A stretch of DNA of 26,485 bases from IMG/VR virus record IMGVR_UViG_3300020172_004172, positions 1 to 26,485 of that record. One strand, written 5' to 3'. Of this stretch, positions 1 through 25,942 are shown in pieces (the first letter of the stretch is position 1; each line of letters opens with the position of its first letter). Under the pieces are notes generated by a model. The model saw nothing but the letters and a program-made list of their open reading frames with translations. It ran no database searches and was not told the origin of the DNA. Position numbers and translations under genes: made by a program. The stretch is from a virus.

Positions 1-253
1 AACCACTATTCCCGCTCCAAGATTAGGTTTTAACCTCACGTTACGAACGGTTATCCGTGAGCACCGGTTCGTTTCATTTACACAGCTTGAACGTCAACGA
101 ACTACGAGATTCAAGCCATGGCTTATGCGGCTAGGCTATAAGCATTTGCGTCAAAGTTTGCACTTAAACGGTGATCCATTTATTACGATGCCAAGGATCA
201 TCATCGTGTTGAGGGACTATAGTTCCTATAGCTTGTCGAAACTACGCAGGCCC
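1..253 (-). ncRNA. ssrA: Transfer-messenger RNA (tmRNA), 5' part, 3' end beyond the window
   Basis: tmRNA rescues stalled ribosomes by acting as tRNA-Ala and then as a short mRNA that adds a degradation tag. On the minus strand the RNA starts GGGCCTGC at 253 and has the conserved TTCGAC at about 241-236. The resume codon GCA is at 161, 92 nt from the 5' end, close to the distance in E. coli tmRNA. The tag frame (161-123) reads ANFDANAYSLAA then TAA and ends in the usual LAA-type tail. Crossing helices form a pseudoknot before the tag (206-202 with 190-186; 200-195 with 177-172) and another after it (116-110 with 91-85; 102-96 with 73-67). A third is likely (61-56 with 40-35; 53-50 with 34-31). 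The order is that of a one-piece, non-permuted tmRNA. The T-arm and CCA end would lie to the left of position 1. Confidence 0.93.
123..161 (-). other. tmRNA tag-peptide reading frame (ANFDANAYSLAA)
   Basis: Twelve codons from the GCA resume codon to TAA, preceded by TTTAAGT, which resembles the element that sets the resume frame in other tmRNAs. With the alanine carried by the tRNA part, the added peptide would be A-ANFDANAYSLAA. The C-terminal LAA is what ClpXP-type proteases recognise. The middle (FDANAYS) is unlike the common ANDENYALAA tag. Confidence 0.9.
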
Positions 254-261
254 ATTGCATT

Positions 262-290
262 AATATACTCTAAAATGCGCTTGATTACAA
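262..290 (-). promoter_or_regulatory. Sigma70-like promoter of the tmRNA
   Basis: Minus strand: -35 TTGTAA (290-285), 17-bp spacer, -10 TATATT (267-262). Eight bases separate the -10 from the predicted RNA 5' end at 253, so the transcript could begin at or within a few bases of the mature end. This suggests transcription by host-type RNA polymerase, independent of the neighbouring gene. Confidence 0.65.
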
Positions 291-298
291 GAAATTTA

Positions 299-631
299 TT
301 ATGAATATCGCTCAACAAACTTTTGGATTGGCTCTGGAATCAGTGCTCTGAGTTTTGTATCTGTGGTGTTAATCAAACTGTTGGCTGAGATTAAATCCTG
401 GCGCTGAATAAAAGTTGCAATCTTTTGTATGCGGATCTCTTCTGCACGGCTAATATCGGCCAGCTTTGTGCTATTCATTAGCTGTTCTGCATACCGAGAG
501 CATATATTCTCAAACTCTCTAGGTTGATTCGTGAACTTACTAATAAAAGGGGCAAGCCTGCCCTGATGCTGGATGTAGTGTGACTCCGACAACACCTTTA
601 AGTGTCGCAAAAATAGCTTTTTGTTAAACAT
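299..631 (-). CDS. Small phage protein of unknown function
   Basis: 110 residues, basic and mostly helical in character, with no signal peptide, membrane segment or motif that I recognise. It is the last protein gene before the tmRNA promoter. The ATG at 631 is preceded by AGGAG at good spacing, and that ribosome-binding site lies in the loop and 3' arm of a hairpin. This suggests translational control. I cannot propose a molecular function. Confidence 0.7.
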   Translation of the reverse strand: MFNKKLFLRHLKVLSESHYIQHQGRLAPFISKFTNQPREFENICSRYAEQLMNSTKLADISRAEEIRIQKIATFIQRQDLISANSLINTTDTKLRALIPEPIQKFVERYS

Positions 632-655: not shown

Positions 656-1108
656 TTAGTGAGGACTGATTTTGTTATCTTCATTCTCAATCTCTTCTTC
701 AATAGTCGCTTGCGCCTCTCGCAACACATGAAGCACACTTTCCATAAAATCTGTATTATCCATCTGATCGAATATCTTTGGATCTAATTTTGGTCTGTCG
801 TCAGTGCCAACTCGTCTCATCTCCCAAGCAAGCAAAAAGAATATGCAACAGCCGGCATGTGCGAGATGTGTTAGTCCAGTCTCCCGATCTTTGTCTTGTC
901 CATGAAACCATCGAGTCAAGTGGCGCTGTACTGCACCAAACACTCTCGACCAGTTCATGCCTTTTTCCCAGTTTCGTGCATCATACTTTGCTGCGCCAAA
1001 AGTGAGTACTTTTGCAATTTCATTTACCGCGTCGAACGGAACAAGATCCCATCGAATTTTGTGCTGATCATATTTCACTCCCTCAGTCTTTTTCTCTTTC
1101 TTGGTCAT
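656..1108 (-). CDS. dATP/dGTP diphosphohydrolase-like protein (MazZ/DUF5664 family)
   Basis: 150 residues of the phage MazG-like all-alpha NTP pyrophosphohydrolase type. Visible hallmarks are an early KYD...KIRWDL segment, FGAAKYDARNW near residues 38-48, the HLTRWFHG stretch, and the metal-site helix DRETGLTHLAHAGCC, followed by a helical, acidic tail. Family members hydrolyse dATP/dGTP to the monophosphate and pyrophosphate, and some serve phages that replace adenine with 2-aminoadenine. No PurZ or DatZ is visible here, so general nucleotide-pool control is the safer reading. The ATG has AGGGG upstream. Confidence 0.8.
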   Translation of the reverse strand: MTKKEKKTEGVKYDQHKIRWDLVPFDAVNEIAKVLTFGAAKYDARNWEKGMNWSRVFGAVQRHLTRWFHGQDKDRETGLTHLAHAGCCIFFLLAWEMRRVGTDDRPKLDPKIFDQMDNTDFMESVLHVLREAQATIEEEIENEDNKISPH

Positions 1109-1669: not shown

Positions 1670-2434
1670 TTAGTCTAATCCAAGATTGATTCTCGCTATG
1701 ATATACTCTTTGACGAATCCTGAACGAACAATGTCTGCAACGCCAAACTCAATCATAGAAAAGCTAGACATAGCTCTAGCAATCTGTAAGAGATTGTGCA
1801 TGCCAGTCTCTTGATTCTTTTTGCCGGTCATTTTCAAGTCGTTCTGGCGAGTGTCGCCGCAAAGAATAACACGAGTATTTTTGCCAACACGAGTCAATAC
1901 AGAATTGATCTCATGATCAGTAAGGTTCTGAACTTCATCAACGATAATGATGGCATCATCGAACGTGATACCTCGAATAAACGAAGTTGACATAAACTCA
2001 AGATACTCTCTCTTTTTTAAGAGATCGTACACATCTCTGCGGCCGTTACACAACTCTGCAAAAACTTCTCGATACGGTGCTTCATATAAAGCCATCTTCT
2101 CCTGCAAAGTTCCTGGAAGAAACCCCTGGTCTCGTGTTGTGACAGCACTGCGAACTATGATTATTTTCTTTGCATGACCATGCTTCAAATCCTGCAAGGC
2201 GAAGTATGATGCCAGAAAAGTCTTGCCAGTGCCTGCACATCCATACAAAACGAGATTTCTGCCATTACCATTTGTATGGAAGGCAGAAACTTGGTTGTCT
2301 GTTAATGGAGTAACATCTTTAATCTGAAAATTGTGACTCAATACCTTCTTTTGACGACGATAAGGATCTTGAATCTCTTCAATAACAGACTCTTCTTGTT
2401 GTTCTCTGTCCTTGTTTCTTGAGCGTTTGCCCAT
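1670..2434 (-). CDS. phoH: PhoH-like P-loop ATPase
   Basis: 254 residues of the PhoH family, common in marine phages. The Walker A motif GCAGTGKT is at 65-72 and the Walker B IIIVDEVQN at 162-170. The family's IIIVRSAVTT and LPGT segments lie between them, and GDTRQND follows Walker B. PhoH proteins are SF1-like ATPases, probably acting on RNA or DNA; their job in phage infection is not settled. The ATG has AAGGA nine bases upstream. One base separates its start from the stop of the upstream FmdB-like gene. Confidence 0.93.
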   Translation of the reverse strand: MGKRSRNKDREQQEESVIEEIQDPYRRQKKVLSHNFQIKDVTPLTDNQVSAFHTNGNGRNLVLYGCAGTGKTFLASYFALQDLKHGHAKKIIIVRSAVTTRDQGFLPGTLQEKMALYEAPYREVFAELCNGRRDVYDLLKKREYLEFMSTSFIRGITFDDAIIIVDEVQNLTDHEINSVLTRVGKNTRVILCGDTRQNDLKMTGKKNQETGMHNLLQIARAMSSFSMIEFGVADIVRSGFVKEYIIARINLGLD

Positions 2435-5858: not shown

Positions 5859-7211
5859 TTATTTCTTCCACACAAAATATGGCTCTGACGTATTTTGGAA
5901 ATCGTATATGTTTGGATCCAACATGAGAGCCGTCTTATATCGTGTGAAGTTGATTCCTTGCCCCCATCCAAAATGAAATAGTAGATCTTTTTTAGAAACC
6001 ACACCGCTTTTTTTAATAAAAGCCTTCAGCTCGTCTAGTTTGGATTGAGCTTGTACACACACGTTTTTTGACAAAACATCATCTATAGCCGCGGACAATT
6101 TGTGAACAGACTTGTTCTTGTATGGCAATTCTCGTTGAGCGTATTTGAGCTGCTCGTATGCCTTACTATTTCTAAGATTTTCGTCGTCGAGATATGCCGA
6201 CAAAAGATCAACAGCACGGTCAACGTTTGAGAATGTATCACCAACTGAACATAATTCCTTGTAGTATGGTGCGTCATAAAACACTACAGGACAACCATTC
6301 ATCATAGCATCGGTAGCAGAGATGCTCCAACCAGCATACTTCTGCTTGGGTGCATAGCACACACGACACTTCGATAAATGTTCATAGTATCCTTTCTTAT
6401 CAAACTTGTCGATGTACATATACGGAGCTTGACTGGTCTTTTCGAGAGGTACCCACACCTTAAAGTCCTGGCGTTTTTGCCATAAGGCGTCACATGTTTT
6501 CAGAAACACATCGTAGTCTTTGTATACCCAAGGGCGATGATTGAACGCAATAATCTTTTCTGTGCTGGTGCGAATCGAGTCTGCACAATCAGTTTCTTTG
6601 ATGCCCAAATAGTTGGGTTCAAGAATGTGATTCAATCGAGCTACAACGTCATTTGAATAAAACTCTTGTGCAGTCTTAATCGCAAGCTCTTTCTGTGCTT
6701 GTGTGTTTACGAAGCACTTGTCCATCTCTAGCAAGCCTGAGATGTTATACATGAACGTATCTTTCCAGGTTACAATCTTCGGGAAATCAAACCAGTGACA
6801 GTATCCTAAACACCTAAGATCGAAGTGAGTTCTATACTTCAGAATATTCATCAACTGAAGTGTGTGTTCTGGCAGATGACTAAACACCATGTCATAGTGG
6901 TAGTCTTTGTAATTCAGCACCTCTTTCTTTAGCTCATCTGTGTTGAAGTGTATTCGCATTTCTGGCGAATACGAGTGAAACCCGGAAATGACAAACTGAT
7001 GTGTATTGGGAAAATCAAGCCTATTCAACTTTGCGGGTGATATGATATACCAATACAGATCAGAGCGGACTTCTCGAAGCGATTGAATCATCATCGAGAG
7101 TGCATCAACATAGCTGTCAGTCTCGTAGTTGCGGCTTGTGATATTAGGATATACAAGTATTCGTTTTACCTTCTCGGTAGGTAAATCTTGAAGTGTTGTA
7201 AACGATGTCAT
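5859..7211 (-). CDS. GT-B type glycosyltransferase with C-terminal added domain
   Basis: 450 residues from the ATG at 7211, which overlaps the upstream stop as TAATG and has AGGTG upstream; six extra codons are possible. The second Rossmann half shows the GT4-like features: FNHRPWVYKDYD (about 223-234), then YAGWSISATDAMMNGCPVV (about 292-310), which is the nucleotide-sugar-binding region. The C-terminal ~55 residues (SKKDLLFHFGWGQG, INFTRYKTAL) look like a small helical, possibly DNA-binding, domain. Coupled to the PLP-like gene, it could glycosylate modified DNA bases, or instead a surface glycan. The acceptor is not known. Confidence 0.75.
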   Translation of the reverse strand: MTSFTTLQDLPTEKVKRILVYPNITSRNYETDSYVDALSMMIQSLREVRSDLYWYIISPAKLNRLDFPNTHQFVISGFHSYSPEMRIHFNTDELKKEVLNYKDYHYDMVFSHLPEHTLQLMNILKYRTHFDLRCLGYCHWFDFPKIVTWKDTFMYNISGLLEMDKCFVNTQAQKELAIKTAQEFYSNDVVARLNHILEPNYLGIKETDCADSIRTSTEKIIAFNHRPWVYKDYDVFLKTCDALWQKRQDFKVWVPLEKTSQAPYMYIDKFDKKGYYEHLSKCRVCYAPKQKYAGWSISATDAMMNGCPVVFYDAPYYKELCSVGDTFSNVDRAVDLLSAYLDDENLRNSKAYEQLKYAQRELPYKNKSVHKLSAAIDDVLSKNVCVQAQSKLDELKAFIKKSGVVSKKDLLFHFGWGQGINFTRYKTALMLDPNIYDFQNTSEPYFVWKK

Positions 7212-8026
7212 TATGCACCTACATTCCAAAACAAAACTGGATGAATCATATCATGGGTCTTGTAATATTCCATCATTGGCAGCCAGGCTTTTGCATCATA
7301 TTCAGGTGCGCTAGGAAAAGGCGGCATCTCACTATGCTTTACTCTTTGATTCCACTTATACTTCGATGGGTGAAATATGGCTCTACCAATTTCTCTCGAA
7401 TTCATATTATGTCCGCCAGATGAAACGACATGAACTTCTGCGTTAGGCCAGGCGAGCTGTAGAGATCTGCTCAATGTGCCTGAAGAGCCTATACTCCATA
7501 CATGATTGGGAACTATTGGTAATGACCTAGCAACTTTCATGAAACATGCAAATACTGTGGGGTGCTCTAGGCCTATAGGCAATAAAGCTCTAGTTGTGGG
7601 ATCTTCAGCAACATAATCTTTCGCTCGCCTTTTCGTGACATTCAACATGCCGTCGGGTACCCACCGATAATCAACACCCAACTCTATTCCTTTCTTTTGA
7701 TATGCATGTAATTTATCCATACCTCTCTCTGCCATGAATATGACTGCCTTCTTAGCATATCTGTTACATAAGAATGGTAGGCTAATCTGTGCATATCCGG
7801 TCGCGGGACACGATCCGTATACCCACTCTTTTATGTTGCGGTGTTTTGGACAGTGTCCGATTAAGTAGTCTGCACCTCGTATTTTTGTGCCAGCATCTAG
7901 CATGTCATCACGAACGACGTAGATGCCGTTATGGAGCTCTAATACTGGTGCTGGATATGGATCTTCCCAGCCAGTTATTAGCTGCAAATACTCATCTGAA
8001 GAGTCAGTCAAAAAGTCAAAGTTCAT
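7211..8026 (-). CDS. Fold-type-II PLP-dependent enzyme-like protein (ACC deaminase / tryptophan-synthase-beta-like)
   Basis: 271 residues. VVRDDMLDAGTKIRG (37-51) matches the RDD...G-x-K-x-R block in which lysine (here K48) binds PLP. YGSCPATGYAQ (70-80) resembles the substrate loop, and SIGSSGTLSRSL (178-189) the glycine-rich phosphate cradle. It is shorter than free-standing relatives (about 330 aa). The reaction is unknown: amino-acid lyase, transferase, or part of a base-modification pathway. Its stop overlaps the glycosyltransferase start (TAATG), so the two are probably made together. Confidence 0.55.
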   Translation of the reverse strand: MNFDFLTDSSDEYLQLITGWEDPYPAPVLELHNGIYVVRDDMLDAGTKIRGADYLIGHCPKHRNIKEWVYGSCPATGYAQISLPFLCNRYAKKAVIFMAERGMDKLHAYQKKGIELGVDYRWVPDGMLNVTKRRAKDYVAEDPTTRALLPIGLEHPTVFACFMKVARSLPIVPNHVWSIGSSGTLSRSLQLAWPNAEVHVVSSGGHNMNSREIGRAIFHPSKYKWNQRVKHSEMPPFPSAPEYDAKAWLPMMEYYKTHDMIHPVLFWNVGA

Positions 8027-12720: not shown

Positions 12721-12947
12721 TAATCCTCTTCATCTTCGTATTCGTCTTTGGCATAATACTTATCATCATCAAAATCATCATACTCTTGAAAGTCTTTCAA
12801 AAAAGGTCTTTCATCTCTCAAATCGCAGACATCGCCACAGAAGGGACAAATATCTGGAACTAGCTTTTTGCCATTTTCGCCGATAACAACAATATTAAAC
12901 TCAACATCACATTCATGACATGTACATTTTGTTGTTTTTTTACTCAT
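12720..12947 (-). CDS. Small zinc-ribbon protein with acidic tail
   Basis: 75 residues. Cysteines C8, C10 and C13 (CTCHEC) and C34-x2-C37 (CPFC), with C41 nearby, make a probable zinc ribbon. The last 25 residues are Asp/Glu/Tyr-rich. It is coupled at both ends by TAATG, to the ribonucleotide reductase before it and to the resolvase after it. Function unknown; perhaps a nucleic-acid or protein adaptor. Confidence 0.75.
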   Translation of the reverse strand: MSKKTTKCTCHECDVEFNIVVIGENGKKLVPDICPFCGDVCDLRDERPFLKDFQEYDDFDDDKYYAKDEYEDEED

Positions 12948-14878
12948 TATAGTGTCTCACAGTGTCCAGCAGAACACGCCAACTCCTGTGTGGCAGTTGT
13001 CGAGTCTTCTTTTTCATACTGTGACAATTTAGTCCAATCAATATGCGTCGGCATTTTAGAAACCAATTCTTGAAACGCCTCTCTATCACACTCTTGATAT
13101 GGAGCCTGCTTGTATACATGATCGCTGAATGGAAGAAATGATATTCCCGAAATATGGTCAAAGTTCTTATAGACATAAGCAGCAACATCAAGCCACTCAT
13201 TCTCCTTCACAGAGATGGTTATGGATACAGTATGCTCTGCCCAATACTTTTTATAGAACATCCAAAGCTCAAGGTGCTTGATAGCACTTAACTGTTCTCT
13301 AAACACAGCATGAGAGGGTGATCTAACAGGAAATGAAAAGACGGTTGTATGTTCTGGTTTTGTAACATCAGGTTCGTTGGGGAATCCAAGCTCTTTCATC
13401 AATACACATAATGGATCTTTGTTGTCGGAACGGACCGTTCGTATGTAGTATTTTGAATGGCGAGCGTGGATGCCGGACGCACTATCGACTAATTGTGATA
13501 CTGTACCGGACGGTTTGACACATGTGATGGATGCAGATTCGGGAATGCCCAATAGCTTTGCCCACTTTCTGTTAGTCTCAATAGCATGGTCTTTCAGTTC
13601 TAGTAGCAGCTCTTTCAAAGAGTTGCTAGGTGTTGCGAGTATCTCATTGTCTAGTATTCCAGTAAGAGATACACCCAACAATCTTTCTTCTTCGGCATTT
13701 TTTTGCCACTCTTTGGTCAGATACCTAAAATTGGTTAGGGTTGACTGCATAGTTCCTAATATAGCGGCAAGCTCTACTTTTTTTAGTAGCGTCTCTCGTG
13801 TGTCATTTGCCCTAACAACAACTTCAGAAAGATTACAAAAGCCTCTATTACGCAGTAGTATTTCGGCGCAGGGATTCGTTCCTGCAATCTTTGACGAATC
13901 TCTTCGAGGTTCGTTTTGAGAGTTTACTCCGAGAGACTCCGCAGACTTCTTGGCTGCAACGAGATTGAATATTCCTCGCTCGCCAGACCGCGACTCATAC
14001 AACGATTTCCATTCATCCATGAATATGCCTATATCCGGCTTCTCCGTATAACATGCACTGTTATTAGCCAAGGCACGTTGCACATTTTCTATCCACCACT
14101 GGCCGCCCTTTGCAGCCCTCATTCTATCATCAGACAAGTTACTGAGAGAAATTAGTGCGGAGCGACGAACTCCACCTACGACAATGACTTCTGCAATCTT
14201 GCATACTATATCATGACATTCGATGGACTGTAGCTTACGGCCGGATGCGTTCTTAAACGTCTTTACACAAAACTTATACAACTCAACTAACGGCTGTGGT
14301 CCTGATGCTCTACCACCAAACGTTTTTAGTGGTGTGCCAGAAGGACGAACACGACTCACATCAAACTTAGGAACTTGCCCTTGATATAACAAACTCAGCA
14401 GCTCTTTCAGAGATTTTGCCCAGCCGATCCTAGAGTCTTGAACAACAATCGTCGTATCAGTATCATAAAAAGAATCTGCAACACTTGGCAACTGAGTTAC
14501 ATATTGACGCTCGACTGAGAAACCTACGCCGACGCCGCAAGACAAAATATACAAAATTTCGTCAAATGCACGAGGGCTATCAATAGCTATAAACGAACAG
14601 TTATACCCGGCAACTTCGTCTCTTTCTAGTGCCGGACCTGCGGTCATTAGACACCGCATCGAAGGCATAACACTTAAAGATAGTATAGCATCTCTCAGCT
14701 CATCTTTAATGGAGTCGCTTAGAGTGAAGTCGCATCGTTCTTTCAAGTGCTTTTCAAAAAAGCCAAAGTATCGTGAAACCGTTTCTTCCCAAGATTCTCG
14801 TCTGTTCTGGTCGGGTAGCCATCTGCTATACCTAGACAAGTGAATAAACTCTTGATAAAGAGATGGCAATTTTTTCAT
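12947..14878 (-). CDS. nrdJ: Adenosylcobalamin-dependent (class II, monomeric) ribonucleoside-triphosphate reductase
   Basis: 643 residues. It reduces NTPs to dNTPs using coenzyme B12 to make a thiyl radical. It starts like the Lactobacillus-type RTPR (FIHLSRYSRWLPDQNRRESW). GYNCSF has C94, GTNPCAEILL holds radical C337 and E339, and FCNLSE has C348, the partner of C94. The 11-residue spacing from C337 to C348 matches known enzymes. The C-terminus CSAGHCETL carries the redox-shuttle cysteines. It is about 100 aa shorter than the Lactobacillus enzyme. GGAG precedes the ATG and a good promoter lies upstream. Activity needs B12 from the host. Confidence 0.94.
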   Translation of the reverse strand: MKKLPSLYQEFIHLSRYSRWLPDQNRRESWEETVSRYFGFFEKHLKERCDFTLSDSIKDELRDAILSLSVMPSMRCLMTAGPALERDEVAGYNCSFIAIDSPRAFDEILYILSCGVGVGFSVERQYVTQLPSVADSFYDTDTTIVVQDSRIGWAKSLKELLSLLYQGQVPKFDVSRVRPSGTPLKTFGGRASGPQPLVELYKFCVKTFKNASGRKLQSIECHDIVCKIAEVIVVGGVRRSALISLSNLSDDRMRAAKGGQWWIENVQRALANNSACYTEKPDIGIFMDEWKSLYESRSGERGIFNLVAAKKSAESLGVNSQNEPRRDSSKIAGTNPCAEILLRNRGFCNLSEVVVRANDTRETLLKKVELAAILGTMQSTLTNFRYLTKEWQKNAEEERLLGVSLTGILDNEILATPSNSLKELLLELKDHAIETNRKWAKLLGIPESASITCVKPSGTVSQLVDSASGIHARHSKYYIRTVRSDNKDPLCVLMKELGFPNEPDVTKPEHTTVFSFPVRSPSHAVFREQLSAIKHLELWMFYKKYWAEHTVSITISVKENEWLDVAAYVYKNFDHISGISFLPFSDHVYKQAPYQECDREAFQELVSKMPTHIDWTKLSQYEKEDSTTATQELACSAGHCETL

Positions 14879-24690: not shown

Positions 24691-25698
24691 TTACTCGCCT
24701 ATGTTTTTATAGGTTGTTTTTGGAAACTTATATGCGTACTTGAGCAAATCTTTCATCTTCAAGTCAACGACATAACACGACACCTTAGTGTTTTTATCGA
24801 GAACTCTCAGAGCAAATAGCTGATGATGTCCATCCAAAATGAAGTTGTCGTAGGAAACAACAAATGGCTTTGGTTCTTTTCCATTAGTAAACTTCTCAAC
24901 CTTTTCCTTAACCTTATCCAAATCAATTTCGTTCTGGGTGGGTTTTAGAGAAGATATGGAAATGTCCCGGTGAGAGACGCTAACACCACGATCTTTTAAT
25001 ACTTCTAAAAAGTCCGGTATGTATTTCTTCTTAATCTGTGGCATTTCTCGCCTAGGAATATTCAACGTATCACTCAAATGCTTAACTTGTTCAACCATTT
25101 CGTGTATGTCCATGGCTGTTCTGACATCATTAAACATCTGCTTTGCAAACTTGTCAGATAGTTTGGATGGAACACCTTTCTTAAAAGACTTGAAGTTGTC
25201 TTCGGCGGCAGCTTCACGCATTTTAGATGCACTCATTCCTGTTATGCCATCTGAGTCTGGATCTCGATCTCCTGCACTAACAATATCAAACGAATCGAGT
25301 CTGAACCCTTTTGTTGGGTCAGGATGATTAATATACTTACGAATAGAGTCTCCCAAATCAAGTCTATCTGACCCTGTAACAAGAACAACGTCAGTGAACC
25401 CTTGGTTCTCTAAAAACTTTACGGCATGAAACGGAGAAAGTACCGTAGTATCACTAAACACATAGCCTTCGGCGCCTGGGACGCCCATTTCAATATACTT
25501 CACCTTCTGTTTGCCAGTGAGAGGATTCTTCTTCACATCTTGAGAGTTGGATACAAAGATAAATGGAGTGGCGTTAAGTTTCTTAGCCACTGCCAAAACC
25601 TTTGTTATCAGCTTCTCATGTCCCGAAGTGGGAGGATTCATTCTTCCGAAAGCGAATACGGCCTTTTTCTTTTGAACCACTTCATTAAGAGTTTTCAT
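24691..25698 (-). CDS. Nucleotidyltransferase (HxGH-type) fused to a ParB-like domain
   Basis: 335 residues from the ATG at 25698; the longer reading begins at a TTG. The N-terminal ~180 residues form a cytidylyltransferase/NMNAT-like domain: FGRMNPPTSGHEKL (17-30), VTGSDRLD (107-114), and TGMSASKMREAA (153-164) in place of the ISSTxIR motif. The C-terminal part has VVSYDNFILDGHHQLFALRV (280-299), the DGHH core of ParB/Srx-like domains. MKTLNE/V at the start resembles a capsid-targeting and cleavage signal. Function is unknown: nucleotide or NAD-type chemistry plus DNA binding or cutting is possible. Confidence 0.75.
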   Translation of the reverse strand: MKTLNEVVQKKKAVFAFGRMNPPTSGHEKLITKVLAVAKKLNATPFIFVSNSQDVKKNPLTGKQKVKYIEMGVPGAEGYVFSDTTVLSPFHAVKFLENQGFTDVVLVTGSDRLDLGDSIRKYINHPDPTKGFRLDSFDIVSAGDRDPDSDGITGMSASKMREAAAEDNFKSFKKGVPSKLSDKFAKQMFNDVRTAMDIHEMVEQVKHLSDTLNIPRREMPQIKKKYIPDFLEVLKDRGVSVSHRDISISSLKPTQNEIDLDKVKEKVEKFTNGKEPKPFVVSYDNFILDGHHQLFALRVLDKNTKVSCYVVDLKMKDLLKYAYKFPKTTYKNIGE

Positions 25699-25699
25699 A

Positions 25700-25942
25700 T
25701 TAGTTTGTGTGGGCAACCTTAACTGCTAAAACATCTTCGGTAGCAACGAGAGAGTGTGTGGGCGCTTTTTGTATGTTGAGCACTTCACCTTGAGTTAAAG
25801 TAAGAGATGCTACAGTGGCACTTCCATCTTTTACAGTAACAACAACAGAGCTGCCCGTATTTACAAGCCTAACGACAGTTGCATTTTGTACTGTTGTGGC
25901 GGTGGCGAGATCAGTTTCTTCGGTCAATGGCTTTACGATCAT
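25700..25942 (-). CDS. Small virion-type protein of unknown function
   Basis: 80 residues, beta-rich and Val/Thr/Ala-rich: MIVKPLTEETDLATATTVQN, VVRLVNTGSSVVVTVKDG, LTLTQGEVLNIQKAPTHSL. Small proteins with this NTG...GEV...KAPT pattern are common near structural genes in marine T4-like phages. AGGAGA lies before the ATG. One base separates it from the nucleotidyltransferase gene. No catalytic residues. Confidence 0.65.
   Translation of the reverse strand: MIVKPLTEETDLATATTVQNATVVRLVNTGSSVVVTVKDGSATVASLTLTQGEVLNIQKAPTHSLVATEDVLAVKVAHTN

Follow-up and report, generated by a model that had tools for sequence, protein, structure and literature searches.

The bacterial one-piece tmRNA (RF00023) combines an alanine acceptor stem carrying a G3-U70 pair, a UUCGAC sequence, the pseudoknot PK1, a GCA resume codon, a tag ending in LAA, the pseudoknots PK2 and PK3, and a 3′ CCA. 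Phage tmRNA is already known as a kind: it was found with ARAGORN in 402 of 18,146 phages (PMC9004378), ten phage tmRNAs are named in PMC4131195, and complete tmRNAs reside in the genomes of the Bxz1 group, Wildcat and phage G. The phage Melnitz encodes a two-piece (permuted) tmRNA (PMC9004378). Among phages with related core genes, DLP_6, BUCT-ZZ01, Mosig and HTVC008M contain permuted tmRNAs over the RF04321 cut-off, and Cr30, PhiW-14, XG4, C48C1, SH-Ab 15599 and phiN3 contain no tmRNA over either cut-off (RF00023, RF04321). The permuted tmRNA of Stenotrophomonas phage DLP_6 (KU682439.2 102838-103059; RF04321, 136.8 bits) is not adjacent to phoH.

The window analyzed here is an entire linear viral contig of 26,485 bp, one end of which falls within a tmRNA gene next to phoH. 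The tmRNA clade represented by the window shares all the listed elements of the bacterial one-piece tmRNA and, like the known phage tmRNAs, is a complete tmRNA in a phage genome. It differs from the bacterial form in being phage-borne and ARAGORN-negative and in its ANF-type 12-aa tag and 6-bp T-stem, which gives a 13-bp instead of a 12-bp helix. Unlike the tmRNAs of Melnitz, Mosig, HTVC008M, DLP_6 and BUCT-ZZ01, it is built in one piece. In contrast to the known phage tmRNAs, it was not matched at the DNA level in any of 50,697 phage records (two copies gave nothing at E<=1, and a third gave only short matches of chance level). Counts of viral tmRNA are probably too low, because the largest one found for phages rests on ARAGORN, which reported no tmRNA in any member of the window clade.

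Positions 253 to 1 of the minus strand contain the initial 253 nt of a one-piece tmRNA (ssrA) that overruns the contig end (Table 1). RF00023 aligns to this segment as a 3′-truncated match of 22.9 bits (E=5.2e-7), below the gathering score of 47 bits, the 3′ half of the gene being beyond the contig; against the same cut-off, relatives with a complete gene score 61-79 bits. At gathering level, an Rfam scan of the whole window gave no match, and ARAGORN found no tmRNA in the window. A permuted reading was rejected on an RF04321 score of only 19.6 bits versus 47 and on the one-piece order seen in the completed gene. The first-pass annotation had proposed a phage-encoded tmRNA with a TTCGAC-type 5′ end, a resume codon 92 nt into the RNA and crossing helices on both sides of the tag, and each of these elements was located. 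The TTCGAC sequence occupies 240..235, the resume codon GCA is RNA nucleotide 93 and opens the tag ORF at 161..123, PK1 is directly pairable ahead of the tag, and PK2 and PK3 lie 3′ of it, as in other tmRNAs.

The missing 3′ part is provided by IMGVR_UViG_3300020172_003728 (L229), a viral contig picked up by its T-arm pattern. L229 contributes 136 nt, which yields a joined RNA of 389 nt. The acceptor strands GGGCCUG and CAGGUCC of the joined RNA form seven of seven pairs with G-U as the third (G3-U70), and the RNA ends in ACCA with an encoded CCA. The tRNA-like half that the first-pass annotation expected within about 150 nt to the left of the window is therefore present, its CCA end being located 136 nt left of position 1, and the acceptor stem is of the predicted alanine type. 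The L229 strand of the long helix H2, AUAGCUU, is the exact partner of AAGCUAU in the window, whereas H2 differs (AGACUAU/AUAGUCU) in L002, the relative most similar over the 5′ half. This exact match favors a single molecule, and the window and L229 probably derive from one phage. The 99-nt identity might reflect an assembler k-mer, and L229 may represent a near-identical phage instead of the same one. Contigs break inside the tmRNA gene in four cases (window position 1, L003:1, L014:4977 and L229:9956), probably because co-occurring phages share stretches at which the assembly graph branches. The window tmRNA is also a mosaic, with an L002-like 5′ part and a PK3 and following stretch identical to L038. 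The window copy is 96.9% identical to L002 over alignment columns 1-100, and over columns 191-256 it is 100% identical to L038 and 84.8% identical to L002. Within-gene exchange between phages is the simplest reading of this pattern.

Table 1. Features of the tmRNA locus in the window and in related contigs (window positions unless a contig is named)
Feature	Position	Strand	Evidence or remark
One-piece tmRNA, first 253 of 389 nt	1..253	(-)	RF00023 E=5.2e-7; completed by 99-nt overlap with L229, which holds the remaining 3′ 136 nt
Stretch identical to L229 end	1..99	(-)	Exact suffix/prefix identity, 99 nt
PK3	32..61	(-)	One covarying pair, most other pairs invariant
PK2, 3′ of tag	67..120	(-)	8/11 PK2a pairs change both sides
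Resume codon and tag frame ANFDANAYSLAA-stop	123..161	(-)	Within-class changes all synonymous or stop-to-stop
PK1, CGAUG/CAUCG crossed with GAUCC/GGAUC	173..206	(-)	3/5 PK1b pairs change both sides
5′ strand of long helix H2, AAGCUAU	228..234	(-)	Exact partner AUAGCUU in L229
UUCGAC, reduced D loop	235..240	(-)	Sequence and RF00023 alignment, as in tmRNA
Acceptor stem 5′ strand GGGCCUG	247..253	(-)	Partner CAGGUCC in L229, G3-U70
Sigma-70-like promoter TTGTAA-17-TATATT	262..290	(-)	8 nt before mature 5′ end; recurs among copies
110-aa gene directly upstream of tmRNA	299..631	(-)	Diverged homologue in three relatives, 27-30% identity
dATP/dGTP diphosphohydrolase-like gene	656..1108	(-)	PF18909 3.7e-34; usually between phoH and tmRNA
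phoH-like gene	1670..2434	(-)	PF02562 1.6e-44; conserved neighbor
CyVA-1 RNA	L229:9610-9688; L040:1915-1990; L039:756-831; L038:1064-1142		RF02965 44.2, 43.6, 43.6, 39.7 bits; cut-off 41.4
CyVA-1 RNA	L016:7623-7698		By similarity only

Relatives were sought with the phoH gene (window 1670-2434), which identified 26 viral loci; a search using the 110-aa upstream protein as the query found none. Among the close loci (PhoH 74-83% identical), L002, L012, L013, L015, L017 and L018 contain complete tmRNAs above the Rfam cut-off, and the L014 and L003 contigs end within the tmRNA, as the window does. L003 and L002 represent one and the same phage, L246 provides a further copy that is 96.7% identical to L018 around the tmRNA, and L007, L008 and L019 stop short of the tmRNA place. 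The tmRNA is present in nine distinct phages, where it follows phoH or lies in matching sequence. In L016, phoH and the diphosphohydrolase gene are followed by a membrane-protein-like frame with no tmRNA between, so the tmRNA is optional and not essential to the group. Several of the phages have a CyVA-1 RNA (RF02965) downstream of the tmRNA position, 33 nt past the CCA in L229. Elsewhere in the window, a B12-type ribonucleotide reductase (12947-14878) is ~60% identical to rhizobial, roseobacter-type and marine phage enzymes. One protein (24691-25716) combines cytidylyltransferase-like and ParB-like nuclease parts, both weak Pfam matches, and another (7211-8026) matches phrog_7093, a phage family annotated as threonine dehydratase (1.3e-33), and no Pfam family.

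Base pairing was evaluated in an alignment of eight complete copies, consisting of the joined window/L229 RNA and seven relatives, in which 62 pairs in ten helices were scored with the crossing helices included. Standard pairs account for 97.8% of the pair cells, and 23 of the 62 pairs change on both sides. Both-side changes occupy 54 cells versus 16.6 in shuffles, and none of 500 shuffles reached the real value on either measure. When the register was slid, only 34-41% of positions paired (the helices were picked with L002 in view, which favors the unslid register; the both-side changes sit in other sequences). Pair 3 is G-U in all eight copies, in a tRNA-like domain with an alanine acceptor and CCA. 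Homologues, covariation and synteny thus bear out a phage-encoded tmRNA.

The window tag, ANFDANAYSLAA, is a 12-aa peptide with an AN- start and the standard LAA end, and its short frame runs from the resume codon through this hydrophobic end to a stop, as expected of a tmRNA. Three tag classes are distinguished: ANFDANAYSLAA in the window and L002, ANFDSFDYALAA in L036, L037 and L246, and ANFNDSAYALAA in L014, L038, L039 and L040. All six within-class codon changes are synonymous or stop-to-stop, given a silent probability of ~0.38 for a random transition in the tag frame, and L246 carries two more synonymous changes. Judged from these codons, selection appears to act on the peptide, and the frame is therefore very probably translated. 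The first-pass annotation had called the tag unusual and suggested that it might redirect tagged proteins. The ANF form was indeed not found in 84,980 bacterial and archaeal species genomes with an exact DNA pattern, which would miss other codon choices, but the AN- start and LAA end are ordinary and invariant across all three classes, leaving the tag only mildly unusual. The RNA might work with the tag itself as its purpose, so that host or phage proteins meet a fate other than that under the host tag. The constancy of each class within the window clade and the unmatched ANF form are compatible with this reading; we consider it improbable, since every class retains what is an ordinary degradation signal, and redirection received no direct support.

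The proposed −35/−10 pair is at chance level in the window by itself (1 found, 1.4 expected). Across the eight copies compared, the summed best promoter score is 75, with none of 2000 shuffles exceeding 66, and TTGNNN-16/17-TATANT boxes are observed in seven of the eight, including the window, with L037 as the copy without them. This recurrence substantiates the claim that the gene has its own promoter. It also bears on whether the gene is a decaying relic from a host, acquired for example via prophage excision at ssrA. Such an origin has a basis in the use of ssrA as an integration site by some prophages, in which its fragments occur (PMC9004378), and would agree with the L016 locus. However, the gene is full-length, occupies the same place across diverged phages and retains compensatory changes, synonymous-only tag changes and the recurrent promoter, and no integrase was found among the 20 window proteins searched. 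The tag changes, the completion by L229 and the covariation largely refute the relic reading, which is very improbable.

The new element of this tmRNA is its T-stem, which the first-pass annotation could not include, as the contig ends before it. The T-stem contains 6 bp in all eight copies and, with the seven acceptor pairs, forms a 13-bp acceptor/T helix, departing from the usual tmRNA geometry of a 5-bp T-stem and a 12-bp helix, which is typical and not defining. The sixth T-stem pair covaries (AU in six copies, GC in one and UA in one), and in the Rfam alignment of L002 both sides of the stem carry a single inserted base. The T loop of the eight copies is UGCGACU; its UGCGA sequence (U55 to G) was dismissed as an oddity, being common in bacterial tmRNAs. 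An acceptor/T helix of 13 bp is known in bacterial selenocysteine tRNA, and a literature search largely outside subscription journals found no paper on such a helix in tmRNA.

A scan of bacterial genomes with a pattern that allows 12- or 13-bp forms gave 282 matches in 273 of 742 genomes from three phyla; the pattern demands GGAC and G.G/C.C and samples only part of the bacterial tmRNAs. One match is 34 nt long, which is the 13-bp length, and thirteen are 33 nt long, having the additional base on just the 5′ side. The sole 34-nt match (G556) is on a contig with endolysin-like and phage-type nuclease genes. In viral contigs, the mixed pattern gave one 34-nt match among the 80 matches listed, nearly all of which are 12-bp forms. 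The 13-bp pattern gave many matches, and a tmRNA above an Rfam cut-off was present in 9 of the 14 loci checked. Restriction of the 13-bp helix to the window clade is ruled out by the Rfam-passing L257, L245, L238, L200, L210 and L216 and the permuted L262 and L265. The viral tmRNAs of L257, L245, L238, L200, L262 and L265 have a 6-bp T-stem in one-piece and permuted forms, with tags such as AEDNVVSYDFSYDEVVALAA. The 13-bp helix is thus rare, recurrent in phages and not limited to the window clade. As a full cause of the ARAGORN failure it is not supported, because ARAGORN does find L210 and L216. L034 and L035, IMG/VR phages whose phoH homologue is more distant, also encode one-piece tmRNAs, but these have a 12-bp helix, are ARAGORN-positive and carry the tags ANQDDYFEYALAA and VDESFTDYALAA.

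It is highly probable that the RNA is a working phage one-piece tmRNA that uses host SmpB and AlaRS and adds to ribosome rescue and tagging. The RNA would be made from a sigma-70-type promoter of its own where a phoH/nucleotide-metabolism gene block ends; after trimming to 389 nt, host AlaRS would recognize G3-U70 and charge it with alanine. A search of eleven phage records, each of which may be a fragment, found no SmpB, so that host SmpB would have to serve; it would bring the RNA to ribosomes that have stalled on broken mRNA. Translation would resume at GCA, append (A)ANFDANAYSLAA and terminate at UAA, which would free the ribosome and leave the peptide with an LAA end that host ClpXP-type proteases could act on. 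The phage would gain rescue capacity while mRNAs are being degraded, and the earlier suggestion of continued ribosome recycling is plausible. A precedent is phage Wildcat, in which no lytic gene is expressed more highly than the tmRNA (PMC7474061). The 13-bp helix counts against a working tmRNA in that it could alter the fit to SmpB, EF-Tu or AlaRS. By changing delivery, the longer arm could also suit a decoy, which would slow host rescue without useful tagging by binding the SmpB of the host or by taking up stalled ribosomes. Phage DS6A has little beyond a tRNA-like domain, and a molecule similar to that of DS6A inhibits tmRNA, perhaps by SmpB titration (PMC4131195). A decoy would, however, have no need of a conserved tag, and the reading frame, stop and pseudoknots are under selection here, so that this role is quite improbable.

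Beyond the working tmRNA favored here, some phage tmRNAs may constitute a structural type of their own, marked by a 13-bp helix. Such a type would be scarce in host chromosomes or missing from them and would recur, one-piece as well as permuted, in phages unrelated to one another; its longer arm would change the use of EF-Tu, SmpB or AlaRS. This proposal is tentative and, on present evidence, rather unlikely; if it is true, the 13-bp arm could favor the phage RNA during infection or evade an RNA-cutting defense. The three conserved tag classes offer a test of whether tags are chosen by phages or merely kept, and the 13-bp arm, kept with compensatory changes, offers a direct test of the tRNA-like geometry that SmpB, EF-Tu and AlaRS need.
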